NCBI GenBank assembly: GCA_010405405.1
Contig: MU004232.1
Location: forward strand, 2,883,603 to 2,909,695
Reading direction: 5' to 3'
Source: Microthyrium microscopicum
Lineage: Eukaryota; Ascomycota; Dothideomycetes; Microthyriales; Microthyriaceae
DNA: 26,093 bases
Below, one piece after another: positions 1-26,020 of the stretch (position 1 is the stretch's first letter; the number at the start of each line of letters is the position of its first letter). The notes under the pieces are model-generated. The model did not search any database. It saw only the letters and a program-made list of their open reading frames with translations, and was not told the DNA's origin. Both the position numbers and the translations under genes were made by a program.

Positions 1-1520
1 TAGTTTATTAGAGAACTTTATTATTAAGTATATACGCGCTAAGTATTTTATAAGTACTATATATTATATTAAAATAAGATAAAATTACTAAAACGACCTA
101 AAGTAGAAGCTATTAACCTTTAGAGGAACTACTCTCTAGATTTCTTTCTATAAAAGGTTAGATGTCTAATAGATAAAGAGGCTATAAGACTAAAAGGACT
201 TAATATTTCTATTATCTCTTAACTAATTTAGTATAGATTTATAGTTATAGTAATTAAAGAGTCTAATAAGTCTATAGTATTAATATTAGCTACTAAAATA
301 TAATCTAATAGATAATTTACTCTATTTTTAATAGACTTTTTAGATTCTACTATATAGCTACCTAGTACAAAACTAGCATAGTATAAGCTATTTTATTAAT
401 AATTTATTACTTAAGCTATTAATATATATAAGGAGATCTAGACTATTATTAGTCTAGATAAGGTATTAATTATAAAGAAAAGGTAATAATTCTTCTTAGC
501 TATTATATATATTATTAAGTCTTATATTTAGATATTCTTAAAGACTAAGAATATTAGGTTTACCCTAAAAGTAAATATAGTTACTCTAAGGCAATATATA
601 CTACCTAACTATATACTAACTTTATAGTAAAAGTTTAGGTATATAATTATTATATTTAGCTAAACCCTTATTAATAAACTAGATATATTCTAAAACCTTT
701 AGCTTTAAAGTATATAACTAGTAGCATTAGGTTAGAAACGTAGTAATAAAATTATATAACAAAAAGTATATTACTTTATTAGAGCTAATTCTAATAAAAT
801 TATATAAGTATTTAAAGATAATAAGGAAGTCTAACTATAAGTCTAAGTTCTTAAGTAGAATAAGTAAACCTATTTAGTAGTATAGGCAGAATAAGTTATT
901 AACTTAAATAGTACCTAATTCTTTAAACTAGACGTAGCTAATATTAAAGTACCTATATATAAAATACTTTCTTATTATACGCTATAGCTTATATAATATA
1001 CTTAATAAATTATTAATAAGTATCTTAATAAGGATAAGTTAGATATAACTAATTATACTAAAAGTATATAGTTAGAAGATATTATTCTCTTTAACGTACT
1101 TATAATACCTTTAATATACCTTCTTACTAACTTAGAGTTATATATAGAAGAATAGAAGCTAAGTAGCTAGTAAAATAATTATACAAATATGCTTACTAAG
1201 ATTCTAGAATAGATTAAAGGACTAGTTAGTATACTTAGACCTTAACTAACTAAAAACTAAATTTAGCGTATAATTAATTAATTAGCTAATAAAATATCTA
1301 TATTAGATTTTAATTATATAAATAACATGCTATAAATAAAGATTAACTATTAGTAAATAGTCCTTATTTAGAACTCTAGTACGAAATTAGAAAACTTATT
1401 ATTAACTATATTAGGCATAAAAAAGCGTACCTAATAGGTACGAATTACTATTTATTCTTATAGAGCCTAAGACTAAGTTAATATAGCCTTAGTAGTAGAT
1501 AGGAGTTTAGTATATATATA
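1..1520 (+). pseudogene. RIP-degraded coding relic, family unknown (copy 1)
   Basis: Read from base 1 in phase 1, this stretch gives a varied, protein-like translation with RIP-type stops only. I count about 21 stops in the first 620 bases, against about 30 in the next best frame I read. Short stretches stand out, such as RPKVEAINL near 100 and KVRCLIDKEAIRLKGLNISI at 150-210. The phase holds to about 1520. I looked for Walker A and RecQ-type helicase motifs and found none. The product is unknown. The upstream part lies outside the window; in copy 2 the same frame can be followed back to about 20140. A rival frame, in phase with the relic at 1658, is also readable, so the frame choice is uncertain. 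Confidence 0.35.
436..459. repeat. Perfect hairpin, 10-bp arms
   Basis: The arms atctagacta (436-445) and tagtctagat (450-459) are exact reverse complements around a 4-base loop. The same hairpin is in copy 2 at 20718-20741. TA-rich RIP DNA makes chance palindromes common, so no function is claimed. Confidence 0.5.
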
Positions 1521-1657
1521 ATAAGAATAAATATATATCTAGACGTAAAAACGTAGATAGATTCCTATAATATAAGATATATAACTATTTCTATATAATT
1601 TAAATTATTAACTTATTTATATATAAGTTATAATAAACTATTATATTATTCTATAAA

Positions 1658-4545
1658 ATGCCTTTTAGACCTAATTCTCCTAATATCCTTTACCTTATTA
1701 AACCTACCTTTATAGCCTTTATTATCTAATATAATATCTTTTGCGTAGTACTTATAAATAGAAACCTTAATAAAGCCCTTAAAATTATAGTAGAATTAGC
1801 AGTATAGGCATTTATTATAGAAGTTAAGTAAATAATACTTAGTAAGCCTAGATAAAAGCTACCTAGATTTAAATAAATATAGTTAGTATATAGAATATAG
1901 GGTAATACTACTATATACTAGTACTATATAGAGACTATCCTTTATAGTAAGACCTTTTACCTTAAGAAATAATATACTTATAAGTACTATAGACTTAATA
2001 CTTCCTTAATTAATTATATATACTAGTCTTCTTAGTACATTAATTTTAATATAGCTAATAAGGCATATTTAATTAATATTCTAGGATCTAAAGGTTAATA
2101 TAAGTAGCTTAGCTTTATTAATTAGCTCTTCTTAGATCTTTAAATATAGAGAGATTATCTAGGCCTTCTATTTAAAGTTTATCCTAGTTAATATTTTCCT
2201 ACTATACTTAAGGAAGTTAATAGAATGCCTAATTAGAAGGATTTTAGTTACTATAAATTTATTAAGGCACTATATAGTATATTAAATAACTAGGAACTAA
2301 CTAGCCTTAATGAGTAAAACAAACTTAGTATATAGTTAAGAGATACTATACTCTAAAAGGTATCTATTATACTAAACATTATACTTATTTATAATAGTAG
2401 TAAGTTTCTTAAAACTATAAAGCCTAGTAAAGAGGCTAAGAAAACTAGATAACGTATTCCTTATTCTTTTTAATTAGGGCTATTTTTTGCTATATATATT
2501 AACATTCTTAATACTAATACTTTTACTTTACTAAAAGAGATATATAATAACTTCTATACTATTATAGCTAGCAGATTAAATTAAGTAGCAACTAATACTA
2601 TAATTACTAAGGCTAATAAAGCTAGTATACTTTTAGTTACTAATCTAGGACTTTTGTCTTAACTAGAAGTAGTTAGTTTTAGTTAAAAGGACTAGCATCT
2701 TTATTATTATTATAGTGTATAATACCTATATAGTATATATAAGAGATTAGTACTATATAGCAAGTATCTTTAGTACTATAAAGCTATTAATAATTTTATT
2801 CTTAGCTTAGACTACTAGTAAGATCTTTTTATAGCTAAACTAATTATATGTCTATATACTATAAGTAATATCTAATCTAGATAAGTTATATAGTTTATTA
2901 AAATAAGTAATAATAATAACTTATTAAAAATAGCATTATTTATTAGTAGAGGCTATAGAGAATTAGATAATAATAAACCTAAGTTAATGTATCTTAGAAA
3001 TATAAATAATACGTTAATAAATTTTAATAACGCTAATTAATAAGATTCTAAGTCTACCTATTTAAACTAGACTTAATATAATAAGGTAGGTTGCTAGCTA
3101 GGATTAGATAACTAAAATTATAAATATCTAATAGCTAGTAATTTATAGTATATATAATAGGACTTAGTCTAATAAGTATCTAGATTAGTACTTATAATAG
3201 AAGAAGTAAAAAATATTATATTAATAGAAAATAATTTGCATCTAACTAGTAATAAAGAGTTTACTAGTAAAGAAAGGTTTACTAAATCTAGTATACCTCT
3301 ATTAGATTTATAGATAGTCTATTATAGCTAATCTATCTAAAAGATAGATAATATTTAAATACTTAATAAAGACGTATTAAAATAACTAAGACGCTAAAAA
3401 CAACGTATATAAAAGAAAGGTAAGTTTATATATAATATATATATAAATAGTATAGAATACTAAAATTAAATATTCTTTATAGTAAATATAAGATTTATTC
3501 TAAACTTTTAATATAGAACTCTAATTCGCTATAAAGTAAATATATAACCTAAAATAATAACTCGTATATATTTATTACTACTATATTAAGAGTTTAAAGT
3601 TAATAAAATATATAGAGCTAAACTCCCTAAAACTACCTTCTATTCTTATTACTAATATACTTAATATAAGCATTTTTAATTCCTTATTCCTTTATAGTCC
3701 TAGGTAAAACCCTTTACTCTCTTATATTACTATAGACTTAATACTTCCTACTCTTACCTTTAAGTTAAATTGTATACTAGATAACTAAATATAATTCTAA
3801 GTATAAATATCTTTAATAATAAGTAGAGACTATATAAGCTTAGTAAGGATAGCTTAAGTAGCGCTTTTAATAGATAGAGGTTATATACCTAAATAAAATA
3901 ATTATTTAAGATAAGGAAATTTGCCTAATAAGAATTATAATACTAGTAGTTATAATATTATATAGAAGCTATTTAAATTTATAACCTTAAAAAATAGTAT
4001 TTCTAGTTAATATCCTAATAATATATATTACTAAGTTAATAGAATAACTATAAGTATTAATAGATAAGATTAGGCTATTTTACTATTATTAGCTATAAGA
4101 ATAAGTAAATCTAGTTAGATAAAGGTATATATAGATAAAAATTAATAACCTACTTATTAAATAATAGAGTAATAGCGAAATATAATATCTAGTAGCTCTT
4201 ATATAGTAGTAGAAACATTAGCTAATATATCGTAACTAGTACTAATATAAAAGGAACCTAAAAGATTTACTACTAAATAGGCTATATTAGAGATAATTAA
4301 TAGTAAAATAAATAATAACGTAGAAATATATAGTATAAAGTAATAAAAGACTAATTATACTTACTTCCTTATAAGAGATAACTAATAACTAATAAATATA
4401 TAGTAAGTCTAACTAACTAGTAGAACTAAGTTGTTATATAACTTAAGGAAGTAAAGTTTAACTATAATAATATTATAATAATATTATACTTAAAGGATAT
4501 ACTCCTAGGTATCTCCTCCTATAGATAGGTCCTAAGAGTTTTAAA
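1658..4545 (+). pseudogene. Long RIP-degraded coding relic, family unknown (copy 1)
   Basis: From an ATG at 1658 the same phase can be read for about 2.9 kb (960 codons) with no frameshift; phase was checked at 1658, 3179 and 4502. All stops are TAA or TAG and restore to Gln or Trp. The start reads MPFRPNSPNILYLIKPTF. Later parts include basic stretches (LRRQKQR with RIP-type stops restored, near 3380) and a varied C-terminal part near 4380-4530 (for example KDILLGISSYR). At about 4545 coding character seems to pass to the phase of 4549 and continue to about 4895, ending in an Asn-rich stretch; this could be a second exon or an old indel. I do not recognise the family. Size and setting suit a transposon gene, which is inference. 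Confidence 0.4.
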
Positions 4546-4548
4546 ATA

Positions 4549-4895
4549 TTAGTAAATTACTTAAGAGTAGTAAATATAAAGATATATTAGACGTTAATAA
4601 TATAAGTAATAAAACTAAACTAGAAGATAGCAAAAGTAGCGTTAAGCTAAGTAGTAAAGAAGAGAGTAGACTAAATAGTATAAAAGAATATAAAGTCTCT
4701 AACAATTTTATAGTAGATATATAAATCTAAATATAATTAGATTAAATATACCTAAATATAACTAGATAATCTAAATACTAATAAACCTAATCTCTCTAAT
4801 AACTCTTAAACTAACATTATAAAAGACTATAAAATAATCTTAATTAATAATAATAATACTAGCAAAGTAGATAACTCTAATAATAATAATAAATA
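4549..4895 (+). pseudogene. Asn-rich continuation of the 1658 relic
   Basis: In phase 1 (TTA at 4549) the sequence reads as a basic then Asn-rich tail, including KDYKIILINNNNTSKV near 4830-4870, followed by AAT repeats and a TAA at about 4895. It directly follows the long relic at 1658 but in another phase, so it may be the next exon or the other side of an old single-base indel. The AAT run alone could also be a microsatellite. An identical copy lies at 24831-25177. Confidence 0.25.
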
Positions 4896-5680
4896 ATATA
4901 TATTATAAAACTATAATTAATCTAAAAATATTATATAAACTAAGACTATAAGCTACCTTCTCTATATATAGATTCTATAATAACCTAAAAATAAATAAAT
5001 AACTTTATTAAAAAAGAGTTAGATATAAATAAATTAATTAGAGATAAAACTAATATACCTATATATATAATAGGACATCTATAGCTATAATACTATAATA
5101 AACTAGAATTATACTATATACTATATAACTAGTATTATATTATTTACTACCTTAATAGTAAGGAAAGATAAATAGTTAGTTATAGTATTAATAGCTTCTA
5201 TAAATACTTAATAGAAATAAAAGGTAAAATAAAATAGTCTAAAGTAAGATAGAAAATAGTAGAATTATACTATAACCTATATAGACTTCTTAGCAATTAT
5301 TAGTTAAGATTATAGAACCTATCTAACTAAAGTAGATATAATAATATATAGCTATAATATAATAGTTTATAATAGAGAATAGAATAGATAATATAAATAT
5401 ATAGGATAATATTTTATAAAGTAGTAATAAGATATATACTAACTATAATATCTAAGTAGGTATAGTTATAGTTATAAATATAAAAATATAATAATAATAA
5501 TAAATATAATAAGTATATATTTTATACTACTTTATATATAATAATATAGTATATAACTAATATAGGATATATAAAAACTATAACCTAATAATAGTATATA
5601 TTATACTAAAAAATATTATTAAGTAACTATTAGATAAAGCTAACTATATTTATAGACTATAAGTATAATATTAAATTATA

Positions 5681-6215
5681 TAATAAAGAGCTAGTTAAAA
5701 ACTATAACTATAAAATATACTACTATTATAGTACCTAAATATACCTTCTAATATAACTATAGTAGAGAGAAATATATATATAATAAAGAGTTATATTAAA
5801 ACTATAACTCTAAAATTTACTATAAATATAATAGCTAAAAATATATAGAATAGGTAGAATTATATATATAATAAAAAACTATATAAAACCTATAACCTTA
5901 AAATATATAACTATTATAATAGCTAAAAAAGTCTAGTAATAGAATAATAAAGAGAAATATATATCTAAATAAAGAGCTATATAAAAATTATAATCCTAAA
6001 ATAACTAAATTTATATATAAGAAAAATAGCTCTAAGAAAAGAATAGTAGAAAGGAATATATATCTAATAAAAGGCTATATAAAGACTATAACCTTAAAAT
6101 AACTAAATTTATATATAGAAAAAATAGCTCTAGAAAAAAAATAGTAAAAAGGAATATATATCTAATAAAGGGCTATATAAAGACTATAACCCTAAAATAA
6201 CTAAATATTTATAAG
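5681..6215 (+). repeat. Tandem array, about 98-bp degenerate units
   Basis: Six diverged units start near 5681, 5781, 5870, 5966, 6065 and 6163 (spacing 89-100). Each begins with a form of taataaagagctatataaa and carries aaaactataaccctaaaa. The last two units are the most alike, sharing ctaaatttatatataga and aatagctct blocks. The first unit straddles the end of the 5.7-kb repeat: copy 2 contains only its first 58 bases or so. The core motif recurs, inverted, downstream at 6260-7020. Confidence 0.75.
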
Positions 6216-6259
6216 GTTATAATCTTTACTTAATAATTTAAAGCTAAAACTTACTTTCT

Positions 6260-7020
6260 AATATTTCTAGGTTATAGCTTTTAAATAGTACTTTTAATAT
6301 AAAGTATATTATTAAAAATATTTACTTATTTAGGCTAGTAAAGCCTCCTTTATTACCTATTATTACTATAATAAAAAGTAGCTATATATATTTAATTTAC
6401 TTATTACTTTCTAAAATAGTAGTCTACTATAAAGCTTAGTATTATAAAATATTTAATCTATATAATTCTTATTATACCTATTTAAAGTAGTATATACTAA
6501 GTATTATATTAAGAAATTAAGGATTATAAAACCTTAAAAATATTAATAGGGCTAGGGTTAAGCTAAAAACCTTTAACTATTTAGTCTTAATTTCCTTTAA
6601 ATCTTCTTTAAACTACTCTATTATTTATTTCTATATTTTAGCTTATATTAATTTTCTAGGTTATAGTTTCTATTAGCCTCTTATAGCTCTTCTACTTACC
6701 TTACTACTTATTCTTAAGTTACTAATAAAATATATAATAATTCTTACTTATTTTCTAGATTATATATTTTAGTAGCCTCTTAACTATTCTAGTAGCTTCT
6801 TCTTTATACTTCCTAGAGTATAATTTCTAATAGATTATTAATATTTTACTAGCTTCTTTTTTCTACTTCCTAAGTTATAGTTTTTAATAACTTATTAGTA
6901 TTTTACTAGCTTTTTCCTTCTACTTCTTAGGTTATAGTTTTTAGTAGCCTATTAGTATTTTACTAGCTTTTTCTTTTTACTTTCTAGGTTATAGTTTTTA
7001 GTAAGCTTTTAGTTACTATT
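6260..7020 (-). repeat. Tandem array, 57-bp units, inverted motif
   Basis: The core of the preceding array recurs here in the opposite orientation as aggttatagtttttagtag. Clear units sit near 6817, 6874, 6930 and 6988, spaced 56-58 bases, each followed by ttattagtattttactagct and a pyrimidine-rich stretch. Looser copies lie near 6269, 6659 and 6770. Together with 5681-6215 this makes a large imperfect inverted arrangement of arrays. Confidence 0.7.
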
Positions 7021-7162
7021 CCTTTTTATTCCTACCTTTTTTTAGTTATTATTTCCTTAGTTATATTTTATTTAGATAAGTAAGTAGTTCTTTATTATAC
7101 CTAGTAAAATACCTAGTAATAACTACTCTTCTATAAGTATAGCTAAAAGTATATAAGGTTAG

Positions 7163-7333
7163 CTAGTAACTACTATAAAGAAAGTAAATATAATTAGTAA
7201 AAAAACTAAAGCTTTAGATAAGAAGGTTAAGTCTAATACTACTAAATTAATTATTAACGTTAAACTAACTAAAAAGTAGACTAAGATAACTAAAGCTAAA
7301 CCTACTAAAGCTAAGGTTATAAAGAATAATAGC
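7163..7333 (+). pseudogene. Lysine-rich relic fragment
   Basis: This 57-codon run in the phase of 7163 has a single TAG (7277), flanked by stops at 7160 and 7334. It reads as strongly basic, for example TKAKPTKAKVIKN at 7289-7327, with regular Thr-Lys and Ala-Lys pairs. Such low stop density is unusual in this window. It could be a remnant of a basic, DNA-binding or histone-tail-like segment, but A-rich DNA encodes lysine easily, so the call is weak. Confidence 0.2.
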
Positions 7334-8465
7334 TAAAAAGTTTAAATAGAATAAATAGTAGATGTTTGTAAGCTAGAGTTAGGTTAGTTTGTACGTAAAA
7401 TATTAAACTACTAAAAGTTTATATTTTTAGTAGAGAGATACCTCTATACCTCTATAACTCCTCTAATACCTACTTAATAAATATGCTCTAAAGCTTATAT
7501 TACTTAGGTTAACGTTCTTTATTAAATATATATAATTTTATATAATGTAGTACTCTTATTAGGTAGATAGATCTAATAGTATAAAGTTAGGACTTAGTAA
7601 AAATTCTATTATTAAAATGCTATATTAGAGAGACTTAGTAAGGTAACTTACTAATAGAATATAACTTCTCTTTTAACTATTAGTAATAATACCTACTAAA
7701 CTAATACTTAATAGTATAATACTACTTTACTCTATAGCTTTATATATTATTTACTTATACTTGCTTTGTCTAAAGTTAACTCTTTATTTAATTCTAGTAG
7801 TTTTAGTAACTTACTCTAAAGGGCTCTTTAAAAACTATAACCTAGCTTTTTTAATATTTCTCCTAGGCTATAGTTTTTAAGAAGCCTATAGTAATATCTA
7901 GATTGCTAATATACTACGCTATATTATGCTATACTATAATTAAGCTAAAAGTTAATAGTCTTAAATAAATATATTTACTTTACGTACTATAGTTACTAAC
8001 TATTATAATATAAGACTACTAAATAACTAGGTTATAGACTTTAGATAGCCTTTTAGTACCTTATTATAAGACTAGAATGTAGTAATAATAGGTACTACTC
8101 TAATTTATTATAGTAAATATTAAATAATTTATATATACTAAAGAAGATAGTATAGATAATAATTAAGATATAGAAAATAGAAAAAGAAGTATATTATTAT
8201 AGGGTTTACTAGTTCCCTTAACCCTAGCTAAATTCTTACCTAACTCTAAACTAAAATATTACTAACTCTACTCTTTAATACTATTACTTTTTTCTACTTA
8301 GTGATTATAGAAATACTATTCTTCTATATTCCTTAATAATAAACTCTATATAAAAAGAAACTACCTATTCTACTATTAATTATACTAGTTAAAGACTTAT
8401 AATAGTAATATACTACTTGTAAAATATAGTAAAACTATAATAAATATATATATAACTAGTATTTT
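7334..8465. other. Non-coding decayed sequence with one inverted repeat
   Basis: I see no convincing relic frame here. The stretch has the same RIP signature as its surroundings. Its one clear structure is the inverted pair at 7830-7878. Confidence 0.5.
7830..7878. repeat. Inverted repeat of the dispersed actatarcctag motif
   Basis: The left arm (7830-7845, aaaaactataacctag) and right arm (7863-7878, ctaggctatagttttt) match at 15 of 16 positions around a 17-base loop. The motif is the same one that forms the arrays at 5681-7020 and recurs at 11845-11990 and 16520-16650. Confidence 0.65.
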
Positions 8466-9013
8466 AATAAATTAGCCCTTAGAGAGATAAGTAAGTTTCT
8501 AAAAGGACTATAAGATATATTAAAGTAGACGCGCTTAATAGAGCTTAATATTAATACTAATCTTATTATACTAACTAACTAAAGTAGCCTAGAATATATC
8601 TTAGAAAAACTTAGAGAGTTATTAAGTAATAAGCTTTTCTATCCTACTAATAATACTACTCTATATATATTTTATATCCTTCTACTACATAAACCTCTTT
8701 TAGGTCTACTATGCTTTTAGTATTAATACTACTTAGATATAAAGACTTAGACTTATAAAATATTAAAGCGTATTAAGATATAGAAGTATAATAATAAGGA
8801 CGAATTTACTAGTCTATATAAGATTAGTAAGTATATTAAAGTAGTTCTTATTATCTAGTATAAAATTACTTTATATTATCCTTATATAATAACTATTTAG
8901 TAAATCGTATTAGCTATAAAATTTAATATACCCTTATTATTTACTTACTATATAACTTTAGCGCTATATCTTATTAGATGTTAATAACTTCTATAGTATA
9001 TTTTTATTCTAAG
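8466..9013 (+). pseudogene. RIP-degraded coding relic, family unknown
   Basis: About 183 codons can be read in one phase (checked at 8523 and 8931) with about 13 stops, all TAA or TAG. The translation is varied: LEYILEKLRELLSNKLFYPT at about 8589-8648 suggests a helical segment, then LLLHKPLLGLLCF, NNKDEFTSLYKISKYIK, and a hydrophobic end near 8935-9010. The flanks lose this character. No family is recognised. Being surrounded by repeats, it is most likely part of a dead mobile element. Confidence 0.45.
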
Positions 9014-9133
9014 ACTTATATTATCTCTTTAACGTTAATAAAGTTATATATGCTAATTATAAAGGAATTTAGCTATTTAATTTTAATATATCCTAATATC
9101 TACTTATAATTATTAAGGTTATCTTTACTTAAA

Positions 9134-9470
9134 AGTACTACGAAAGTATATAAAATTACTTCTATCTTTACTAATATAAGGCTAAAAAATAAATAGATAA
9201 TATATCTATACTTAGCTTATTAAGCTACTTATTTTCTATGTCTTTTTACTATAGTAAAAAAATGTCCTCTATAGGGATTAACTTAGTAACCTTACTACTA
9301 CTAAAGTTACTAAAATATATAAAATTACTTCTATCTCTACTAATATAAGGCTAAAAAATAAATAGATAACGTATCTATACTTAGCTTATTAAGCTACTTA
9401 TTTTCTATATCTTTTTACTATAGTAAAAAAAAACGTTCTTTATAAGGATTAAATAAGTAACTTTACTACG
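9134..9470 (+). repeat. 169-bp tandem duplication with internal 18-bp palindrome
   Basis: Two units, about 9134-9300 and 9301-9470, align at an offset of 169 bases over aaaattacttctatct, aaggctaaaaaataaataga, cttagcttattaagctactt and the palindrome tttttactatagtaaaaa (9243-9260 and 9412-9429, both perfect). They differ at a few RIP-type sites, for example cgt against tat near 9380. Unlike the 5.7-kb repeat, this pair has diverged. Confidence 0.8.
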
Positions 9471-9540
9471 CATAGGATTTAAACTTATAACCTTAACTTT
9501 ATATAATAGTAGAGTTATATACTACTATTATACTAGTATA
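9466..9540 (-). pseudogene. tRNA-like or SINE-like relic
   Basis: On the minus strand the order suits a tRNA: an A-box-like ctagtataatagtagtata (9516-9534), then a B-box-like aagtttaaatcc, about 50 bases apart. The T-arm folds: atagg (9472-9476) pairs with cttat (9484-9488, one G-T wobble) around the 7-base loop atttaaa. RIP would turn GGTTCAAATCC into much this sequence. I could not build a good acceptor stem, so this is a decayed tRNA or a tRNA-derived SINE head rather than a working gene. Confidence 0.3.
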
Positions 9541-10998
9541 ATAAAATTTTAGACTAAATTATAGTACTAAAGTTAAAATAAATTTAAGGTTAGAGTTTAT
9601 AGTTTTTAAATATATACTACTATATACTACTACTACTAATATTTAGCTACTATCTACCTTAATTCTAGTTTTACTTAAACCCTCCTACCTAAAATTTACT
9701 TAGTAAAAATATACTAAAGTTAAAATAAACCTAAGAAAATTCCCTAAAAAAATTCTTAGCTATCTATTTTAATTCCTAATACTAATATTTAGTATCTACT
9801 CCTAATACTAAAATCTAATATATACTATTCTTAGTACTTAGCTCTTATTAGCTTTAACTACTAGTATATATATTTAATATCTACTTTCTAATTTAGTTCC
9901 TAGCTCTTAGCTTTAGTTCCTAGCTTTTTAACTTCTATATACGTTAACTCTTATCTACTTTAACTCCTATCTACCTTAACTCTTAATACTAATATATACT
10001 TAAGTACTTCCTTTTTTAGTATTATAGCTAGTTATTAAATTAAATTTAGTAGTACGTCTTAATAATAAAGCTTAATATTAGTTAAAGTATTTTATTTTTA
10101 AAAGTATAAGAACTATACTCTATTCTAATATTATTCTTTATTATTTCTAGATTAATTAACCTTATTTAGAGACTATCTTCTATATTTAGGAATAAATAGG
10201 AAATAATATATTTAGTAGATGTTTTCTAATAATATATTAATCTTATTATAAGACTTAGATAGAGAGCTTAAAGGCATATTTATAGATAGATTAGCTTAAG
10301 TAAACTATATTTCTTATATTAATTTCTATAAGGTTTTACTATTACCTTAGGTATAAAGATACCTATTAGTATCTACGTATCTATTTATATCTATTTTAAC
10401 TTCTAATACTAATATTTAATATTTCTTCCTAGTTTCTAGCTTCTATACTTATATATAAAGTTAACTATTATTCTTAAAGTAGTACTAGTTTATTATACTA
10501 CTTATAAAGGTAATTATAGTATTATTTACGTGCTAGCTAAGCCTAATATATATATTACTTATATTTATAGCTTCTTTCTTTACTTTTCTTATTCTATACT
10601 TCTCTTTTTTTTCTTTACTTTACTACCTCTATCTTTTTCTCTTCTACTCTCTACTCTCTATAATAGTTTATATTATAGTAATATATAAAATAAGTAAATA
10701 AGTAAGTTAATTTTATATAGAAAGTCTTACTATATATACTAATCTATAAATCTTATTTTAGCTATATTACTATATTAAGTACTTAGTAAGACTTTATAGT
10801 TAAGGCTTTTAATATTATTAATTAGAGAGTAAGTACATAAAGTACTATAGTATATATACTAATAGTAAGATTTAATAATAGTATCTTCTATTTATATCTA
10901 GCTATTAATACTTATAATATAGCTATTTAGTTACGCCTTTATAGTAAAACTTAATATAAACGTAGCTCTATTTAGTTATAATAGCTATATAATTAAAG
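9541..10998. other. Decayed sequence without a clear relic
   Basis: No frame reads convincingly here. A loose repeat is visible: ctattttaattcctaatactaatatttag near 9765 recurs as ctattttaacttctaatactaatatttaa near 10384, with related taatacta pieces near 9800-9990. A pyrimidine-rich tract lies at 10571-10662. Confidence 0.5.
10571..10662 (+). repeat. Pyrimidine-rich tract
   Basis: About 90 bases made almost only of C and T (cttctttctttacttttctt and on through ctctactctcta). CT-only runs contain no CpA, so RIP cannot alter their inner bases on this strand, which may be why it survived. Possible origin: a polypyrimidine microsatellite. Confidence 0.5.
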
Positions 10999-11586
10999 TT
11001 ATTACTAATATCTTTAATAATTAGCCTAATCTTACTATAGACTATAATAGTATTAATTATAAAGTTAGCTATAATAGATACTATTTATATAGTACTAGAA
11101 AATACTTTTATATTTATCTTTATATAAGTAGTTTATAGAAACCTAATATTTAATAAGCTATTACTAAATATAATATATAGACTATTAGCTAGAAATAATT
11201 AAGTAGCTAGCTATAGTTTCTTATTTATATATAAGTCTAAACTAAAATTATATTTTAGTTAGTACTAATACTATACTAGTATTAAGGTTATCTAATAAAA
11301 ATATAATAACTCTATAGCCTTTTTTAATAATAAAGCTAAGTATATACTAGACTCTAAGATTATTTTAAAACTACTATAAATAATAAAAGTAGTTACTAAA
11401 TAACTAGCTAAAAGCATAATAGCGTCTAACTCTTAGGGCCTTTAGAACTAAGAGTTTAAAGTACTTTGTTCTAATAGAGAAGTCTATTAAATAGATTCTT
11501 AAGGTATTAACTTTTAAGTTTTAATAATTAGTACTATCTATATAGATAGTATAAGCCTAATTATAGATAAAATATATCTTAAAACT
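10999..11586 (+). pseudogene. RIP-degraded coding relic, family unknown
   Basis: About 195 codons in one phase (checked at 11092, 11311 and 11578) with about 15 RIP-type stops. The N-terminal third is hydrophobic (KLAIIDTIYIVLENTFIFIF near 11060-11120), which may mean membrane segments or only the AT bias. It is followed by a more polar part: SIAFFNNKAKYILDSKIILK at 11311-11370, ASNS, EFKVLCSNREVY near 11450-11490, and a Thr-Ile-Tyr-Ile-Asp-Ser stretch lying on a 20-bp perfect palindrome at 11532-11551. No domain was recognised. The frame ends in a taataataat run. Confidence 0.45.
11532..11551. repeat. 20-bp perfect palindrome
   Basis: tactatctat followed by atagatagta is its own reverse complement over 20 bases. 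It lies inside the coding relic 10999-11586, so it may be accidental. Confidence 0.5.
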
Positions 11587-11686
11587 TAAATAATAATAAT
11601 AATTTAGTACTAAAGTTATAATTTAGATTATAGTTTAGAACTTAAGTAATAAGAATTAACTACTTATTAACCTATATAGATAATAT

Positions 11687-14169: not shown

Positions 14170-15107
14170 GTAGCTTTAGTACTACCTACTTTATAAAGAG
14201 TAGTTCTAATAGTAGACGCTATAGTTAAATATTAGTAGAACTCTAATTACTATTAAAGACCTTTAAACTTTTAAACTACTTAATTAGCTTAATGACGAAA
14301 TTATTAATAGCTTCTTTACTAAGCTTTACGAAAAGGCTAAGTCTAAACTTACTAAATAGATAAAAATAGTAGGAACCCTAATTAAAGACGATATCTTATA
14401 ATATTATATACTTAATACCTATTAGTTCCTTAAGATATAATAATAAGATAGTATTAAAAAGATTGCTTGCTAGATAAAGCGCTAAAAAATTAGTAGAAAG
14501 AATCTTTTTAGTATTTATAAACTCTTTATTCTAATTTATTAAGATAGTTACTAGACGCTACTAACTATCCTTTTTTAATAACGTTAAGTACGTTAGTATA
14601 ACTCCTTATTTATTAGTAAAGGACTTATTCTTACTTTAGCTAAAGAAATACTTTAATATAAGTTAGGTAACGCTTAAGATAAGAGTAAATAGATATTTAA
14701 GAAAGTAAAGAGTAGTTATTAATAAAACTCTTTAGATTATAGTGCCTTTACCCTTATAAATACTTAGGCTACCTTCTACTTTAATAACCTACCTAATATT
14801 CTTTTTAACTAATATAGTAAAGTAATGTAATAATTAACTAGTTTAATTATCTTTTATAGTAGCTTTAAAGGCGACTTTAACTTAAAGGCCTAGTATAGTA
14901 GCTTTTATTTAGAAACTCTATAAAATATTTCTAACTATCCTTTTTATAGAGTATAATATTAGTAGAGAGCTTATCTACTATAGAGGATAGCCTATTCTTT
15001 TCTTAACTTAATATACTCTTCTTATTAATATATATATATTCCTAATTAAAGATTATCCTCTTATTAATAATATAATCTCTTACTATTACTAGTTCCTATC
15101 GTTAGTA
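14170..15107 (+). pseudogene. RIP-degraded coding relic, family unknown
   Basis: One phase (checked at 14288 and 14861) reads for about 310 codons with roughly one RIP-type stop per nine codons. The clearest part is LNDEIINSFFTKLYEKAKSK at 14288-14347, followed by IKDDIL, a Lys-rich ISRKNLFSIYKLF near 14490-14525, and SSFKGDFNLKAQ near 14860-14895. Further on, a Tyr- and Ser-rich end runs into the 19-bp repeats at 15108. The N-terminal part looks helical and charged. There is no recognisable catalytic motif and the family is unknown. Confidence 0.45.
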
Positions 15108-15164
15108 ATATATCCTATTATTATAGATATATTCTATTATTATAGATATAGCCTCTTATTAGAG
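15108..15164 (+). repeat. 19-bp tandem repeat, three units
   Basis: Units at 15108-15126, 15127-15145 and 15146-15164: atatatcctattattatag, then one-base and several-base variants. They sit at the end of the coding relic 14170-15107. Confidence 0.8.
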
Positions 15165-15190
15165 ATATATTAAAAAGACTAATAGCTATA

Positions 15191-16256
15191 GCTTAATCTA
15201 CTTTAGTAGTAATTACTATATATAAGCTAGTATAGAATAAGGAAGTTACTATTAACCCTAGTTTCTTAGTATAAGTTAAAAAGGACTAGCTAGTAGTATA
15301 GAAGAGGGTAAATAGTAGTTTCCTAACTTCTAATTATTTTAATTACCTCTTATTAACTATAGTATTTACTTATAAGCTATTCCTTTAAGTATTTATAGTA
15401 TATCTAATAACTTAGACTTTTTATAAAGGGTAATAAGTATACTTAATACTATATAATTAGACTAGAATAAGCTAAGTATTAGAATAATAGTAGTATCTTA
15501 GAAGAGATAGTTACCTAAAGTTATATAAGTATAATATTAATAAAGTTATCTTAGAAGGTATATATAATATTAATAAAGTTGTCTTAGAAGGTATAATAGC
15601 TATAGTATTAACTTTACTATTATTAAAGAAGGAGCTATCTTTTAATGCTCTACTTCTAGAAGTTCTATTAAGACTAATTTGCTATTACTAATATAGCCTA
15701 CTTATCTACTTAAATAAAAATACTCCTAATACCCTATTCTAGTATTATAAGGTATAAAGTATATTTTAACTATAGGCTCCTTATAGGTAACTATAATTTA
15801 GAGATAAAGTAGATTTTTTATAGAACTTAATCTTAGCCTAGTTTAGTAATAATTACTATATATAAGCTAGTATAGAATAAGGAAGTTATTATTAACCCTA
15901 GTTACTTAGCATAGGTTAGGAAGGACTAGCTAGTAGTAGAGAAGGCTACTTGTTTACTTTTAATACTCTATTCTAATATAAAATATAATTTAATTATAGG
16001 CTCCTATAAGTAACTATAATTTAGAAACAAAAAAGTTTTCTATAGAACTTAATCTTAGCCTAGTGTTGCTATAGCTACTATATCTTCCTTCTCTATAGCT
16101 ACTACGTTCTCTACTACTATATTTACTTTCTCTACCTTAGGTATAGTTATAGGTAATATAATTTAGCTTGCTACCTATAAGAATAGTTAGTATATTCTGC
16201 TTAGTAATAATTACTATATATAAGCTAGTATAGGATAAGGAAGTTACTATTAACCT
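15191..16256 (+). repeat. Modular dispersed repeat, three copies of one block
   Basis: A block containing aattactatatataagctag, tatagaataaggaagtta and attaaccctagt occurs near 15203-15300, 15843-15940 (offset 640) and, shorter, 16201-16256. A second module, tataggctcc to cttaatcttagcctagt, occurs at 15771-15842 and 15995-16064. In the second copy it directly precedes the first module. The copies differ mainly at RIP-type sites. Confidence 0.8.
15531..15595 (+). repeat. 33-bp tandem duplication
   Basis: Units at 15531-15563 and 15564-15595 share ataatattaataaagtt and cttagaaggtata and differ at one inner base (atc against gtc). Confidence 0.85.
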
Positions 16257-16488
16257 TAATATAAGTAGTAAGATAGAATAAGTAATAAGATAGAACGTAA
16301 AATTAAGGTAAATAAAGCTATTTAAAATAATAAGGGACTTATCTATATCTTGTAAGTCCCTCCTAATATTTTAACTAATATACTTACTTCCCTATTAGAG
16401 TTATTATTCTACTATATACTACTAGTAAAGGACCTATTCTTACTTTATTATACCTAGCGTTATTATTAAGATATATACTAAGTATTAG

Positions 16489-16765
16489 TAAAGTTAACTA
16501 TATAACTACTATATAGTAATAAATTCTTAGGCTATAGTTTTTAGGTACTTTTTAAACTATAGAGTATATATATATTTTAAGTACTATAAAATATAAAGTT
16601 AACTATATAACTACTATATAGTAATAAATTCCTAAGCTATAGTTTTTAGGTTCCTTTTTAACTAATATAATTAAACTCTTTTAATAATAGTAAAGGTTTA
16701 GTAAAGTTAACTCTAGAGCTGCTATATAGTATAGAATTTTAAGGCTATACTTTATAGAGACTCCT
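16489..16765 (+). repeat. 105-bp spaced repeat, three copies
   Basis: A 70-base block, taaagttaactatataacta to gctatagtttttagg, occurs at 16489-16558 and 16594-16662 (offset 105), with a more diverged third copy at 16702-16765. It ends in the same gctatagttttta motif that forms the arrays at 5681-7020 and 11727-12030. Confidence 0.8.
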
Positions 16766-16778
16766 TTATATTACTTTA

Positions 16779-16847
16779 TACTAACCCTATACTAACTTTG
16801 TACTAATTTTATACTAACTCTATACTAACTTTATATTAATACTACTT
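16779..16847 (+). repeat. 11-bp minisatellite, second site
   Basis: Five or six units of ctaactctata and variants. The unit matches the right-hand units of the minisatellite at 13391-13636, so the two sites share an origin. Confidence 0.75.
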
Positions 16848-17161
16848 AAACTCTAAACTACCTATACCTATTCTATAATTAGTACTTATTACGTAAACTA
16901 ATATCTTCTAAGATATTAATTTTATATACTATTCTAACCTTATCTATACTATTATATATATACTAAATATCTTTGCCTAAATATAATACTAGATAGTACT
17001 AAGGCTTATCTAAATTCTATTACGTTTAATAGAATAAAACGTTATAATTATAGTAGACCCTCTTTATAAATTATTAAGAAATTAGTAATCTTATTAAAGG
17101 GTAGTAGCTATTACTATATAAGCTTAAAATCTAGATATTATTATCCTAAGCCTTAAGAGTA

Positions 17162-17400
17162 GGCAACGATATAGAATATAATTAAGGCTATTTAGGTATA
17201 ATTAAAGTATACCTCTAGTAGTTATATTATAACTAACTCTAACTAGATTATAAGAGATTGTATTTAATTCCTTAACTCCTCTACCTATTCTACTACTTTA
17301 AGTCTAGATAGTATTAAGCAACTTTCTAGACGTAGTTTAAAACTAATAGAATTACGCTATAGTAACTAACTCTATACTTAAGCTAAATAACCTTCCTTTT
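17162..17400 (+). pseudogene. Possible first part of the following relic
   Basis: In phase 2 (GGC at 17162) the translation is protein-like, with LGIIKVY near 17200 and TFQTQFKTNRITL (stops restored) near 17325. Near 17400 coding character moves to phase 1 and then stays there. The switch could mark an intron, an indel or a boundary between two genes. The frame choice is weak. Confidence 0.25.
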
Positions 17401-20282
17401 ATTACTATTACTATTTATTTTCTACCTACTTATAATATAAGATACAAACATAATAGTAATAATTACTATAAGGAAAGAGATATAGATAATATATAATTTA
17501 AGAGTAATATACTATATAATAACGTAGCAAATTACGTTAAAAATATAGATAAATTATACTTAAGTAGTAGTAATAATAAATTCTTATACTCTACTAAATA
17601 TATAGATAGCCTAGATATCTCTTTACTCTAATATAGTAATAATAAGGAATTCTATAGTAATAAGTTATAGTCTATACTACTAATAGAAATAACTTATATT
17701 AATAATATTATAGTAGATACTCTTAATCTTAATATTTATATAGCTACTTAAGATAATACTTAGTAGAGAGATATCTTATATTATTAGACAATACCTTATC
17801 CTTTACTTAAAGATTACTAGTTTATATTATAAGAAATAGATGACTTTATATTCTAATATTATAATTATTTATTTAACTATCCTAATACTAGCTATCTATT
17901 AGTTAGTAGTCGTTTATCCTCTTTATCTACTCTACTAGATTTACCTTTTCTAGTAGTAGATATAATTAAGCTAAACTATACTTATTCTTTAAAGTTAATA
18001 TTTAAAGAGTAGAATAGTCTTATGCTCTTATAATTCCTAAATAGCATAATAGTAGAAAAGAACATAATATAGGCTATCTAAGTACATAAGTCCTATATAC
18101 TATTAACTAAGAACTAATATAAACTATAATATTTAATATTTTATAATAAGGAATAGATACTACGCCTTAGTCTTAAATAATTATAAGTTCTAAACCTAAA
18201 TAAGATTTATATATATAGAGTCTATAATTAAGATAGTATTATACTTTATCTATCTTTACTAGCTATATATAAAGGTAGGATTAATATTTTAACGTTCCTT
18301 AGGTACTTTAAAACTAATTATATTAAATATAAATATCCTATTTACGTTTTTAATTAAGAATATAATATTATCTAGCTTATTCTAAACCTATATAAGTATA
18401 AGAATATCTATCTTAGAGTTCCTATTTAGGAAGGTAGGTTATTATTAAGATTTAGTATTTACGTTTATTTTCCTAATTTAATATCTCGTAGTAGAGAGTA
18501 GTATCTTTATATAAAATAACTTAAATAGTAGTACTAACATATCCTATTTCTAGCTATTAGGGATATTTGTCTAATTAACGTTCTATAGTATATACTCTTT
18601 AATAAACATTATACGTATATAATAGCTATAGCGTAATAGGAAATAAGAAACTAAGATAACCTAAAGCTAAGCCTAGCTAATATATTCTTTATAATCTAAG
18701 GTAAATACTTTAAATCTCTATAGGATCGTATACTAAATTATAGTAAAAGGTTCTAAAGCGTAAACTTAAGCTAAAAGAATGCTACTACTAAAAATCCTAA
18801 AAATAAATAAGCTAATATTATAACTTATCTATTAGATTAGATAATAAGTTTAGATATATTTAAGAATCTTATTCTTATACTTATATTACATAATAGCAAA
18901 CTGTTATAGAAAGCTAATAACCTTATCTAAGGATTTAGTAACTACTAGGAGTATATAAATTACTATTTTAACCTTTTGTTTATTAGACTATACTATTTAT
19001 ATATTAATCTTATATATAAAAATATACTATTTTGCTAAGATACTTATAGTAACGAACTCCTTACTAAGAATATTATACTAGTATTAAAATAAGAATATAG
19101 CAAAAATTAGATTTAGTATTATAGTAATCTTAATACTAGTAATAAGATCTAACCTAAGTAGTTTCTATAGTTTCTTATTAATAAAGTAAGTAATTATAAG
19201 TTTTACTATAAGCCTAATAGTCTAATATATAAGGCTAGCCTAGTAAATAGGAAAGTATATATAATTTATAAAGAAATCTTTAGTACTATTTATAAGGATC
19301 TTATACTATTCTAATATAATTATTTAGAGCAACTTAGTTTGTACTATGTAAATAACTTTAGACTTGCTAGATAATAATGCAACTAGATTAAAAAATACTA
19401 TATACTTAAGCAACCTATATAAATAACTATTTGCTAATTATAGAGGGCTACTATCTAAGTATATACTAGCTATTAAGCTAGTAAGAGTAGTACGTTTAGA
19501 GTTTATATTAAGTACTAATTTTAAGTTAATATTCTTTATAATTAGTATAAGTAGTCTATATAAAATAAGGACCTTTAAGAAAATAATAAGAATACTATAT
19601 TATATCCTAAGGTAATCTATAGTAACTAAATTTATAATACATATACTTATATCTATACTAGATATAACTTACTAATACTAATCCTAACGTCTTAGAATAT
19701 TCTCTATATTAGATACTTTCTACGTCTAAAGTTAACTACTTTATCTAGAAATCTATAAAAAGATAGCTATAGCTAATTTTCCTTACTACTTAATATTTAC
19801 TACTACTAATAATTAACTTATATTATAAATAAGCTACTAATATAGTATAATAGTAATACTTAGCTACTATAGTTATTTGTATTTAAATATTTAAGTTAAT
19901 TTTTAGTAGTCTAGTTATAAGAAATAGTAGCATATAGCGTAAATATATTACTATAGCTTAACCTAACCTTAAAAAATCTAAGATATATTTCTAACTAAGA
20001 CTTAATAAATATACTATTATAAAATAATATAAAATAATTTAATTAAAATAATTATATTTTATCTAGAGCAATATAATTCTAGTACTATAACCTAAAATTA
20101 CTTAAGTACTTATAGTCCTTAACTTATTATACTTAGCCTTAACCTTTTAATAACTAGTTATTTAGTCCTAAGCTCTTTATTTATTATATACTACTTGTTA
20201 GTATAAGAAAGAAACTAAAATTAAAATTACTTTTATCTAAGCTACTTTTCTATATAATTCTTTTAGGTATACTTAGACTATC
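17400..20282 (+). pseudogene. Long RIP-degraded coding relic running into repeat copy 2
   Basis: One phase (checked at 17833, 18019 and 20281) can be read for about 2.9 kb without a frameshift. The translation is varied throughout: YKHNSNNYYKERDIDNI near 17450, EIDDFIF at 17833, YLEQLSLYYVNNFRLAR near 19321-19371, and LVNRKVYIIYKEIF near 19231. All stops are RIP-type. The same phase is the phase of the relic at 21940, so a single gene of more than 2,000 codons cannot be excluded. A second frame takes over as the better one near 20140-21800. No family was recognised; size and setting suggest a gene of a large mobile element. Confidence 0.42.
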
Positions 20283-21802
20283 TAGTTTATTAGAGAACTT
20301 TATTATTAAGTATATACGCGCTAAGTATTTTATAAGTACTATATATTATATTAAAATAAGATAAAATTACTAAAACGACCTAAAGTAGAAGCTATTAACC
20401 TTTAGAGGAACTACTCTCTAGATTTCTTTCTATAAAAGGTTAGATGTCTAATAGATAAAGAGGCTATAAGACTAAAAGGACTTAATATTTCTATTATCTC
20501 TTAACTAATTTAGTATAGATTTATAGTTATAGTAATTAAAGAGTCTAATAAGTCTATAGTATTAATATTAGCTACTAAAATATAATCTAATAGATAATTT
20601 ACTCTATTTTTAATAGACTTTTTAGATTCTACTATATAGCTACCTAGTACAAAACTAGCATAGTATAAGCTATTTTATTAATAATTTATTACTTAAGCTA
20701 TTAATATATATAAGGAGATCTAGACTATTATTAGTCTAGATAAGGTATTAATTATAAAGAAAAGGTAATAATTCTTCTTAGCTATTATATATATTATTAA
20801 GTCTTATATTTAGATATTCTTAAAGACTAAGAATATTAGGTTTACCCTAAAAGTAAATATAGTTACTCTAAGGCAATATATACTACCTAACTATATACTA
20901 ACTTTATAGTAAAAGTTTAGGTATATAATTATTATATTTAGCTAAACCCTTATTAATAAACTAGATATATTCTAAAACCTTTAGCTTTAAAGTATATAAC
21001 TAGTAGCATTAGGTTAGAAACGTAGTAATAAAATTATATAACAAAAAGTATATTACTTTATTAGAGCTAATTCTAATAAAATTATATAAGTATTTAAAGA
21101 TAATAAGGAAGTCTAACTATAAGTCTAAGTTCTTAAGTAGAATAAGTAAACCTATTTAGTAGTATAGGCAGAATAAGTTATTAACTTAAATAGTACCTAA
21201 TTCTTTAAACTAGACGTAGCTAATATTAAAGTACCTATATATAAAATACTTTCTTATTATACGCTATAGCTTATATAATATACTTAATAAATTATTAATA
21301 AGTATCTTAATAAGGATAAGTTAGATATAACTAATTATACTAAAAGTATATAGTTAGAAGATATTATTCTCTTTAACGTACTTATAATACCTTTAATATA
21401 CCTTCTTACTAACTTAGAGTTATATATAGAAGAATAGAAGCTAAGTAGCTAGTAAAATAATTATACAAATATGCTTACTAAGATTCTAGAATAGATTAAA
21501 GGACTAGTTAGTATACTTAGACCTTAACTAACTAAAAACTAAATTTAGCGTATAATTAATTAATTAGCTAATAAAATATCTATATTAGATTTTAATTATA
21601 TAAATAACATGCTATAAATAAAGATTAACTATTAGTAAATAGTCCTTATTTAGAACTCTAGTACGAAATTAGAAAACTTATTATTAACTATATTAGGCAT
21701 AAAAAAGCGTACCTAATAGGTACGAATTACTATTTATTCTTATAGAGCCTAAGACTAAGTTAATATAGCCTTAGTAGTAGATAGGAGTTTAGTATATATA
21801 TA
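20283..21802 (+). pseudogene. Coding relic, copy 2 of 1-1520
   Basis: Identical to the relic at 1-1520. Here its upstream context is visible: the frame can be followed back to about 20140 (TTCQYKKETKIKITFI with stops restored, near 20190-20240), showing that copy 1 is cut by the window edge. The rival frame continuing from 17400-20282 overlaps it. Confidence 0.35.
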
Positions 21803-21939
21803 ATAAGAATAAATATATATCTAGACGTAAAAACGTAGATAGATTCCTATAATATAAGATATATAACTATTTCTATATAATTTAAATTATTAACTTATTT
21901 ATATATAAGTTATAATAAACTATTATATTATTCTATAAA

Positions 21940-24827
21940 ATGCCTTTTAGACCTAATTCTCCTAATATCCTTTACCTTATTAAACCTACCTTTATAGCCT
22001 TTATTATCTAATATAATATCTTTTGCGTAGTACTTATAAATAGAAACCTTAATAAAGCCCTTAAAATTATAGTAGAATTAGCAGTATAGGCATTTATTAT
22101 AGAAGTTAAGTAAATAATACTTAGTAAGCCTAGATAAAAGCTACCTAGATTTAAATAAATATAGTTAGTATATAGAATATAGGGTAATACTACTATATAC
22201 TAGTACTATATAGAGACTATCCTTTATAGTAAGACCTTTTACCTTAAGAAATAATATACTTATAAGTACTATAGACTTAATACTTCCTTAATTAATTATA
22301 TATACTAGTCTTCTTAGTACATTAATTTTAATATAGCTAATAAGGCATATTTAATTAATATTCTAGGATCTAAAGGTTAATATAAGTAGCTTAGCTTTAT
22401 TAATTAGCTCTTCTTAGATCTTTAAATATAGAGAGATTATCTAGGCCTTCTATTTAAAGTTTATCCTAGTTAATATTTTCCTACTATACTTAAGGAAGTT
22501 AATAGAATGCCTAATTAGAAGGATTTTAGTTACTATAAATTTATTAAGGCACTATATAGTATATTAAATAACTAGGAACTAACTAGCCTTAATGAGTAAA
22601 ACAAACTTAGTATATAGTTAAGAGATACTATACTCTAAAAGGTATCTATTATACTAAACATTATACTTATTTATAATAGTAGTAAGTTTCTTAAAACTAT
22701 AAAGCCTAGTAAAGAGGCTAAGAAAACTAGATAACGTATTCCTTATTCTTTTTAATTAGGGCTATTTTTTGCTATATATATTAACATTCTTAATACTAAT
22801 ACTTTTACTTTACTAAAAGAGATATATAATAACTTCTATACTATTATAGCTAGCAGATTAAATTAAGTAGCAACTAATACTATAATTACTAAGGCTAATA
22901 AAGCTAGTATACTTTTAGTTACTAATCTAGGACTTTTGTCTTAACTAGAAGTAGTTAGTTTTAGTTAAAAGGACTAGCATCTTTATTATTATTATAGTGT
23001 ATAATACCTATATAGTATATATAAGAGATTAGTACTATATAGCAAGTATCTTTAGTACTATAAAGCTATTAATAATTTTATTCTTAGCTTAGACTACTAG
23101 TAAGATCTTTTTATAGCTAAACTAATTATATGTCTATATACTATAAGTAATATCTAATCTAGATAAGTTATATAGTTTATTAAAATAAGTAATAATAATA
23201 ACTTATTAAAAATAGCATTATTTATTAGTAGAGGCTATAGAGAATTAGATAATAATAAACCTAAGTTAATGTATCTTAGAAATATAAATAATACGTTAAT
23301 AAATTTTAATAACGCTAATTAATAAGATTCTAAGTCTACCTATTTAAACTAGACTTAATATAATAAGGTAGGTTGCTAGCTAGGATTAGATAACTAAAAT
23401 TATAAATATCTAATAGCTAGTAATTTATAGTATATATAATAGGACTTAGTCTAATAAGTATCTAGATTAGTACTTATAATAGAAGAAGTAAAAAATATTA
23501 TATTAATAGAAAATAATTTGCATCTAACTAGTAATAAAGAGTTTACTAGTAAAGAAAGGTTTACTAAATCTAGTATACCTCTATTAGATTTATAGATAGT
23601 CTATTATAGCTAATCTATCTAAAAGATAGATAATATTTAAATACTTAATAAAGACGTATTAAAATAACTAAGACGCTAAAAACAACGTATATAAAAGAAA
23701 GGTAAGTTTATATATAATATATATATAAATAGTATAGAATACTAAAATTAAATATTCTTTATAGTAAATATAAGATTTATTCTAAACTTTTAATATAGAA
23801 CTCTAATTCGCTATAAAGTAAATATATAACCTAAAATAATAACTCGTATATATTTATTACTACTATATTAAGAGTTTAAAGTTAATAAAATATATAGAGC
23901 TAAACTCCCTAAAACTACCTTCTATTCTTATTACTAATATACTTAATATAAGCATTTTTAATTCCTTATTCCTTTATAGTCCTAGGTAAAACCCTTTACT
24001 CTCTTATATTACTATAGACTTAATACTTCCTACTCTTACCTTTAAGTTAAATTGTATACTAGATAACTAAATATAATTCTAAGTATAAATATCTTTAATA
24101 ATAAGTAGAGACTATATAAGCTTAGTAAGGATAGCTTAAGTAGCGCTTTTAATAGATAGAGGTTATATACCTAAATAAAATAATTATTTAAGATAAGGAA
24201 ATTTGCCTAATAAGAATTATAATACTAGTAGTTATAATATTATATAGAAGCTATTTAAATTTATAACCTTAAAAAATAGTATTTCTAGTTAATATCCTAA
24301 TAATATATATTACTAAGTTAATAGAATAACTATAAGTATTAATAGATAAGATTAGGCTATTTTACTATTATTAGCTATAAGAATAAGTAAATCTAGTTAG
24401 ATAAAGGTATATATAGATAAAAATTAATAACCTACTTATTAAATAATAGAGTAATAGCGAAATATAATATCTAGTAGCTCTTATATAGTAGTAGAAACAT
24501 TAGCTAATATATCGTAACTAGTACTAATATAAAAGGAACCTAAAAGATTTACTACTAAATAGGCTATATTAGAGATAATTAATAGTAAAATAAATAATAA
24601 CGTAGAAATATATAGTATAAAGTAATAAAAGACTAATTATACTTACTTCCTTATAAGAGATAACTAATAACTAATAAATATATAGTAAGTCTAACTAACT
24701 AGTAGAACTAAGTTGTTATATAACTTAAGGAAGTAAAGTTTAACTATAATAATATTATAATAATATTATACTTAAAGGATATACTCCTAGGTATCTCCTC
24801 CTATAGATAGGTCCTAAGAGTTTTAAA
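21940..24827 (+). pseudogene. Coding relic, copy 2 of 1658-4545
   Basis: Identical to the relic at 1658-4545, including every RIP-type stop. It is in the same phase as the relic 17400-20282, although the segment between them reads better in another phase. The Asn-rich continuation is at 24831-25177. Confidence 0.4.
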
Positions 24828-24830
24828 ATA

Positions 24831-25177
24831 TTAGTAAATTACTTAAGAGTAGTAAATATAAAGATATATTAGACGTTAATAATATAAGTAATAAAACTAA
24901 ACTAGAAGATAGCAAAAGTAGCGTTAAGCTAAGTAGTAAAGAAGAGAGTAGACTAAATAGTATAAAAGAATATAAAGTCTCTAACAATTTTATAGTAGAT
25001 ATATAAATCTAAATATAATTAGATTAAATATACCTAAATATAACTAGATAATCTAAATACTAATAAACCTAATCTCTCTAATAACTCTTAAACTAACATT
25101 ATAAAAGACTATAAAATAATCTTAATTAATAATAATAATACTAGCAAAGTAGATAACTCTAATAATAATAATAAATA
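24831..25177 (+). pseudogene. Asn-rich relic tail, copy 2 of 4549-4895
   Basis: Identical to 4549-4895; see that entry for content and doubts. Confidence 0.25.
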
Positions 25178-26020
25178 ATATATATTATAAAACTATAATT
25201 AATCTAAAAATATTATATAAACTAAGACTATAAGCTACCTTCTCTATATATAGATTCTATAATAACCTAAAAATAAATAAATAACTTTATTAAAAAAGAG
25301 TTAGATATAAATAAATTAATTAGAGATAAAACTAATATACCTATATATATAATAGGACATCTATAGCTATAATACTATAATAAACTAGAATTATACTATA
25401 TACTATATAACTAGTATTATATTATTTACTACCTTAATAGTAAGGAAAGATAAATAGTTAGTTATAGTATTAATAGCTTCTATAAATACTTAATAGAAAT
25501 AAAAGGTAAAATAAAATAGTCTAAAGTAAGATAGAAAATAGTAGAATTATACTATAACCTATATAGACTTCTTAGCAATTATTAGTTAAGATTATAGAAC
25601 CTATCTAACTAAAGTAGATATAATAATATATAGCTATAATATAATAGTTTATAATAGAGAATAGAATAGATAATATAAATATATAGGATAATATTTTATA
25701 AAGTAGTAATAAGATATATACTAACTATAATATCTAAGTAGGTATAGTTATAGTTATAAATATAAAAATATAATAATAATAATAAATATAATAAGTATAT
25801 ATTTTATACTACTTTATATATAATAATATAGTATATAACTAATATAGGATATATAAAAACTATAACCTAATAATAGTATATATTATACTAAAAAATATTA
25901 TTAAGTAACTATTAGATAAAGCTAACTATATTTATAGACTATAAGTATAATATTAAATTATATAATAAAGAGCTAGTTAAAAACTATAACTATAAAATAT
26001 ACTACTATTATAGTACCTAA

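Follow-up and report, generated by a model that had tools for sequence, protein, structure and literature searches.

How can two long copies of a repeat, both heavily altered by repeat-induced point mutation (RIP), be identical at every base? The question is raised by the last 26,093 nucleotides of contig MU004232.1 (here C3; other contigs are referred to in the same way) of Microthyrium microscopicum, positions C3:2883603-2909695, which as a whole will be called the window. RIP gives each copy of a repeat its own changes, so that identical RIP-mutated copies reveal an order of events: mutation, then copying. The window consists of subtelomeric DNA in which heavily RIP-mutated copies of a repeat of more than 20 kb, called here element E, follow one another head to tail, and two parts of this array are the same over 5.7 kb. 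The answer that we favour, with a probability of about 0.62, is that the pair arose by copying after RIP, through homologous recombination at the chromosome end, and that no, or almost no, RIP-active sexual cycle has followed.

Identity and composition of the two segments

Base-by-base comparison of window positions 1-5738 with 20283-26020 gave no mismatch in 5738 positions and no insertion or deletion (indel), with a period of 20,282 bp. The identity breaks off immediately to the right (5739 versus 26021). It lies far beyond chance: the counterpart of the segment on C4 differs at 463 of the 5738 sites and its longest identical run is 81, which excludes a chance match. The initial annotation had stated that, in every line it compared, the two copies share all bases, RIP changes included, and the alignment bears this out. 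Its description of the DNA as RIP-mutated also agrees with the composition, the G+C content being 20.8%. CpA and TpG are depleted to 0.08 and 0.10 of expectation, TpA is in excess (TpA/ApT 1.65) and the ratio (CpA+TpG)/(ApC+GpT) is 0.083.

The genome assembly comprises 36.9 Mb in 20 contigs. The window is the terminal 26 kb of C3 (2.91 Mb) and its final base is the final base of the contig. It contains the end of one copy of E (E1), most of a second (E2) and the beginning of another repeat, Z, with E1 abutting E2 at 7355/7356 and E2 abutting Z at 26020/26021. The features, in window coordinates, are as follows.

1..5738, + strand: copy 1 of the identical segment, part of E1; no mismatch to 20283-26020 and 92% identity to C4:23511-29249.
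5739..7355, + strand: continuation of E1 beyond the identical segment, contiguous with 1-5738 in C4 and ending at 7355, where E2 begins and cuts it off.
7356..26020, + strand: element copy E2, which extends from a fixed 5' start (TAGTAGACG-like) as far as the junction with Z; about 92% identity to C4 over 7355-13612 and 13445-26023.
20283..26020, + strand: copy 2 of the identical segment, within E2, identical to 1-5738 over the whole segment.
26021..26093, + strand: first 73 bp of Z, a telomere-adjacent repeat of about 2.9 kb, followed by the contig end; matched at nine other places at 81-94%.
14237..15136, + strand: RIP-mutated 900-bp copy, in E2, of part of the host Ulp1/C48 protease gene; 74% ungapped identity to C3:1664390-1665289.
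5328..6213, + strand: short-period tandem array in E, with units of about 88-98 bp in its right part, straddling the right edge of the identical segment.

The length of 5.7 kb is not a natural unit. Copy 1 starts at the first base of the window, so that its left limit is the window edge and the length is a lower bound, and the identity stops at 26020 because E2 ends there and Z begins. Identical copies close to a chromosome end, as found here, are what a recent subtelomeric duplication would leave, the telomere of C3 itself being absent from the assembly at this end. The initial annotation did not recognise that a far longer subtelomeric repeat, arrayed head to tail at a contig end, contains the segments, nor that their limits are set by the window edge and by the junction with Z.

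Organization of element E and repeat Z

In whole-genome searches, copies of the flanks and the segment turned up at several contig ends; identity was 83-93% for the longer copies and 94% for some of the short ones. Additional short matches, mostly at 68-87% and many of low complexity, were left unclassified. The lists of E copies are lower bounds, one of which omitted even the window itself and the C4 copy. The fullest copy seen runs from C4:42280 to 21836 and matches, without a break and at 90-92%, window 7355-20282, followed by the 5.7-kb segment and by 5739-7356 (overlapping alignment blocks 7355-13612, 13445-26023, 1-7013 and 6785-7356). Since C4 contains, in one continuous copy, both what precedes copy 2 and what follows copy 1 in the window, both junctions represent the normal structure of E.

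At seven other places that were fetched, as at window position 7356, E starts at the identical base with differing upstream flanks, the preceding base being A in all eight. On account of this common start we take 7356 as the fixed 5' start of E. Beyond 7355, C4 and C8 share a different sequence, for at least 1068 bp at 91% and, in the whole-genome search, for 1500 bp at 92%. E therefore extends past this point, and E1 simply breaks off at 7355, where E2 starts; a further C3 copy is cut at the equivalent of window position 11146 by the next E start. A circular or complete unit of 20,282 bp was also considered and is ruled out, since C4 and C8 continue jointly beyond 7355. E points toward the contig end at all eight contig-end sites (both ends of C3, the left ends of C4, C5 and C8, and the right ends of C6, C10 and C14), a count that covers neither an E site in the interior of C4 nor C20, a contig of 15 kb.

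Repeat Z can be followed further at the left end of C12 (C12:1-7400), where CCCTAA telomere repeats are succeeded by a tandem Z array with starts about 2.9 kb apart and shorter internal repeats. Z also follows E on C14 and C4, at other positions of E, and these joints show that the junction at 26020 is of a natural kind. No telomere repeat occurs at the right end of C3; tracts of four repeats were found only at the right end of C1, both ends of C2 and the left end of C7, as a lower bound. One of the C4 sites stands apart: an E-to-Z junction at C4:1725912-1729826 and a long Z stretch at C4:1729700-1737700 are separated from the nearer end of C4 by about 1.1 Mb. This is an interstitial subtelomere, and hence an old fusion or a misjoin.

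Divergence among other copies of E and Z

We compared the segment and its surroundings with other copies. The segment differs from C4 at 463 of 5738 sites (two transversions and one 1-bp gap) and, over 1144-4408, from C10 at 247 of 3265 sites (nine transversions). Window 18783-20532 differs from C20 at 121 of 1750 sites, with no transversion, and the start of E2 differs from the next readable upstream E start on C3 (C3:2865904-2867812) at 158 of 1908 sites (8.3%; two transversions). The copies thus differ mainly by C:G to T:A transitions, the pattern left by RIP (461/463, 238/247, 121/121 and 156/158, respectively). C4 and C10 differ from one another at 329 of 3265 sites, 321 of them transitions. 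Adjacent tandem Z units on C12 show 145 differing sites, all transitions, and two indels in a 1980-bp stretch chosen from the array, and two E starts side by side on C4 are 91% alike over 157 bp.

The E copies and tandem Z units compared differ almost solely by transitions, which is what separate RIP mutation of each would produce. The other neighbouring repeats compared differ by 7-9%, so that adjacency alone does not keep copies alike here, and the window pair is the exception among the repeat copies compared. Transversions add a second line of evidence. The C3 array and C4 are separated by 15 transversions in 20,114 sites (four aligned blocks), from which 4.3 would be expected in 5738 sites; the pair has none (P about 0.014), and this absence of ordinary mutations hints at its youth. 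The same small number suggests that, before RIP, little difference existed among the E copies compared; the family seems to have spread in nearly identical form not long before RIP set in.

Could further RIP have left no trace?

The initial annotation had proposed that the pair escaped further RIP because little CpA is left to mutate. This does not hold: each copy still carries 49 CpA cytosines, 28 CpG (56 cytosines) and 1052 CpT/CpC cytosines. The context preference of RIP can be read from the Ulp1 fragment in E2, of which the host gene retains the original. Of the 232 differences between the two, 220 are C>T/G>A, and the conversion amounts to 135/144 at CpA, 56/74 at CpG, 14/109 at CpT and 15/98 at CpC.

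We spread this total conversion over k equal, independent passes and calculated the probability that one more pass would alter neither copy. With all contexts included, it is below 1e-6 for k up to 50, 7e-4 for k=100, 0.03 for k=200 and 0.23 for k=500; with CpA alone, it is 0.004 at k=50 (or less for fewer passes) and 0.07 at k=100. Under this model, exhaustion of targets is insufficient to explain the identity unless RIP per cycle is very weak.

Six matches to PF00145 (C-5 cytosine DNA methylase) exceed the cut-off, at four loci (C4, C3, C4 and C6). The four loci are candidates for RID or Dim-2-like enzymes.

Origin of the identical pair

Several explanations must be weighed. The most serious alternative, although we consider it rather unlikely, is an assembly artefact in which one set of reads was used by the assembler or polisher for both copies at an unresolved tandem array, hiding a real copy or several units. 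A number of observations speak for it and weigh against copying after RIP. Just 73 bp separate the end of copy 2 from an unfinished contig end that lacks telomere repeats. Two other contigs, C6 and C10, likewise terminate in E, and C20 breaks off 250 bp into the identical segment. Since several contigs end in E, these arrays were evidently hard to assemble, and the lack of any indel across 5.7 kb of AT-rich sequence next to a contig end is the outcome expected of shared reads. Two further points weigh against copying after RIP: the identity is seen without an independently observed natural left boundary, and the donor and the direction of copying cannot be read from the RIP patterns. At sites where a C is retained on C4, the mutated fraction of the segment is 0.29 for the top strand and 0.20 for the bottom strand, a bias like that of the body of E2 (about 0.25/0.17), whereas the E1 continuation (0.29/0.32) and the upstream E start (0.28/0.30) show no such bias. 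The RIP load at CpA/CpG, in contrast, climbs along the segment from 0.71 (1-4000) to 0.95 (5001-5738), matching the E1 continuation (0.95). What the artefact must contend with is the absence of any visible chimeric join: on either side the segment has a natural junction, as judged from C4 and from the E-to-Z joints elsewhere. Furthermore, most assemblers separate copies differing by about 7-10%, as the E copies compared do, and the artefact must explain why these two were not kept apart.

The other two alternatives accept both copies as real. An older duplication could have stayed identical because RIP no longer works in the lineage, through absence of sex or loss of RIP. The persistence of identity despite remaining RIP targets would fit, as would four methylase loci that are candidates rather than established RID genes, but ordinary mutations are absent too (none against the 4.3 transversions expected at the C3/C4 level), and we regard this as very improbable. 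It departs from copying after RIP only in why RIP did not follow, and in any case the pair is probably younger than the RIP-mutated E family. Saturation, in which independent mutation would have brought two copies to one and the same final sequence, might be suggested by the near exhaustion of CpA and its almost complete conversion in the Ulp1 fragment. However, the compared copies keep different ones among their remaining cytosines (463 differences to C4), and CpT, the largest remaining class, is so little converted in the Ulp1 fragment that two copies would not agree there. The comparisons with C4, C10 and C20 refute saturation, and we give it practically no weight. The alternatives offered in the initial annotation (copying after RIP, gene conversion or duplication by the assembly) were therefore the right ones, given that other copies differ by about 7-10%, nearly all transitions; its idea of CpA exhaustion falls.

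We return to copying after RIP, to which the identity of this pair points when other neighbouring repeats differ by 7-9%. The E copies at the chromosome end would have been RIP-mutated separately, after which homologous recombination would have written at least 5.7 kb of one E over or beside its neighbour. Candidate routes are unequal sister-chromatid exchange, gene conversion and break-induced replication. Since then the pair would have passed through no, or almost no, RIP-active sexual cycle. If the upstream E start at C3:2865904-2867812 is that of E1 itself, homogenisation covered just part of E; with a further E start between it and the window, the whole unit may have been duplicated.

More generally, one could imagine post-RIP concerted evolution in the subtelomeres of this fungus, in which dead AT-rich arrays are still both amplified and homogenised outside RIP-active meiosis, with the RIP changes held in common serving as a clock for the order of mitotic rearrangements at chromosome ends. 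At present we hold this generalization to be doubtful. If copying after RIP is borne out at this locus, chromosome ends in RIP-bearing fungi go on recombining with long dead repeats, and there would be a way to date chromosome-end recombination relative to sexual cycles. If it is not, the locus serves as a warning on contig ends in AT-rich arrays.

Other features of the window

The host Ulp1 gene (locus C3:1663900-1665800) is recognised by Pfam (PF02902, E-value 1.4e-15) and is without signs of RIP (G+C content of the locus 49%). If all 220 C>T/G>A changes are due to RIP, the captured fragment was about 98.7% identical to it before RIP. A Pfam search of three frames of 14237-15136, with stops read as X, missed the Ulp1 domain. 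With the same treatment of stops, no domain was found in C4:22011-39395 (both strands) or in window 7356-17000 (+ strand), but these negatives are weak because the method also missed a fragment known from the DNA. RIP may hide a domain such as a reverse transcriptase from a search of this type.

E also contains a tandem array of telomere-like units (AACCCTAGGCT-like) at window 13381-13577. A 98-bp stretch at 8781-8878 has five other matches in the genome at 83-85%; one of them, C2:3262082-3262180, gave no match in Rfam. Rfam and tRNA scans of the window, and Rfam searches of three loci, returned nothing informative.

Comparison with known systems

Long subtelomeric repeats of fixed orientation beside a telomere-adjacent repeat are familiar from the Y' elements of yeast and other telomere-associated sequences. 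E resembles Y' elements in being long, subtelomeric, of fixed orientation and next to a telomere-adjacent repeat. It differs in being heavily RIP-mutated, and the frames searched yielded neither a helicase nor any other Pfam domain, which is a weak negative.

In Magnaporthe oryzae, arrays of chromosome-end repeats including MoTeR expand and contract between cultures, and unequal chromatid exchange and gene conversion have been proposed (PMC7367193). The head-to-tail arrangement at chromosome ends is common to both systems. In contrast, TTAGGG tracts lie between tandem MoTeRs, and MoTeR1 possesses a reverse transcriptase (PMC7367193). No telomere tract occurs at the E1/E2 junction (7355/7356), and the search of the E frames, with the same weakness, found no domain.

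A close parallel is found in Colletotrichum higginsianum, for which six recent segmental duplications (SDs) of 4.9-28 kb are described, SD2-SD5 with 0-0.18% polymorphism (PMC5576322). SD1, SD2, SD4 and SD6 lie less than 30 kb from telomeres beside telomere-associated elements proposed as recombination sites, no such elements border SD3 and SD5, and SD1, the oldest (2.6%), shows RIP-type bias (PMC5576322). The likeness lies in near-identical duplications, some of them subtelomeric beside telomere-associated elements. The difference is that five of the six are between chromosomes and that altogether they hold 46 predicted genes (PMC5576322), whereas here a tandem pair of an already RIP-mutated repeat is concerned; for this reason the sequence of events can be told from the RIP changes that the copies share. 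A literature search by title and start of abstract, which is not proof of absence, returned no paper on identical RIP-mutated tandem copies. Near-identical subtelomeric duplications are already known in fungi, and the present case adds an example in which RIP changes serve as a time marker.

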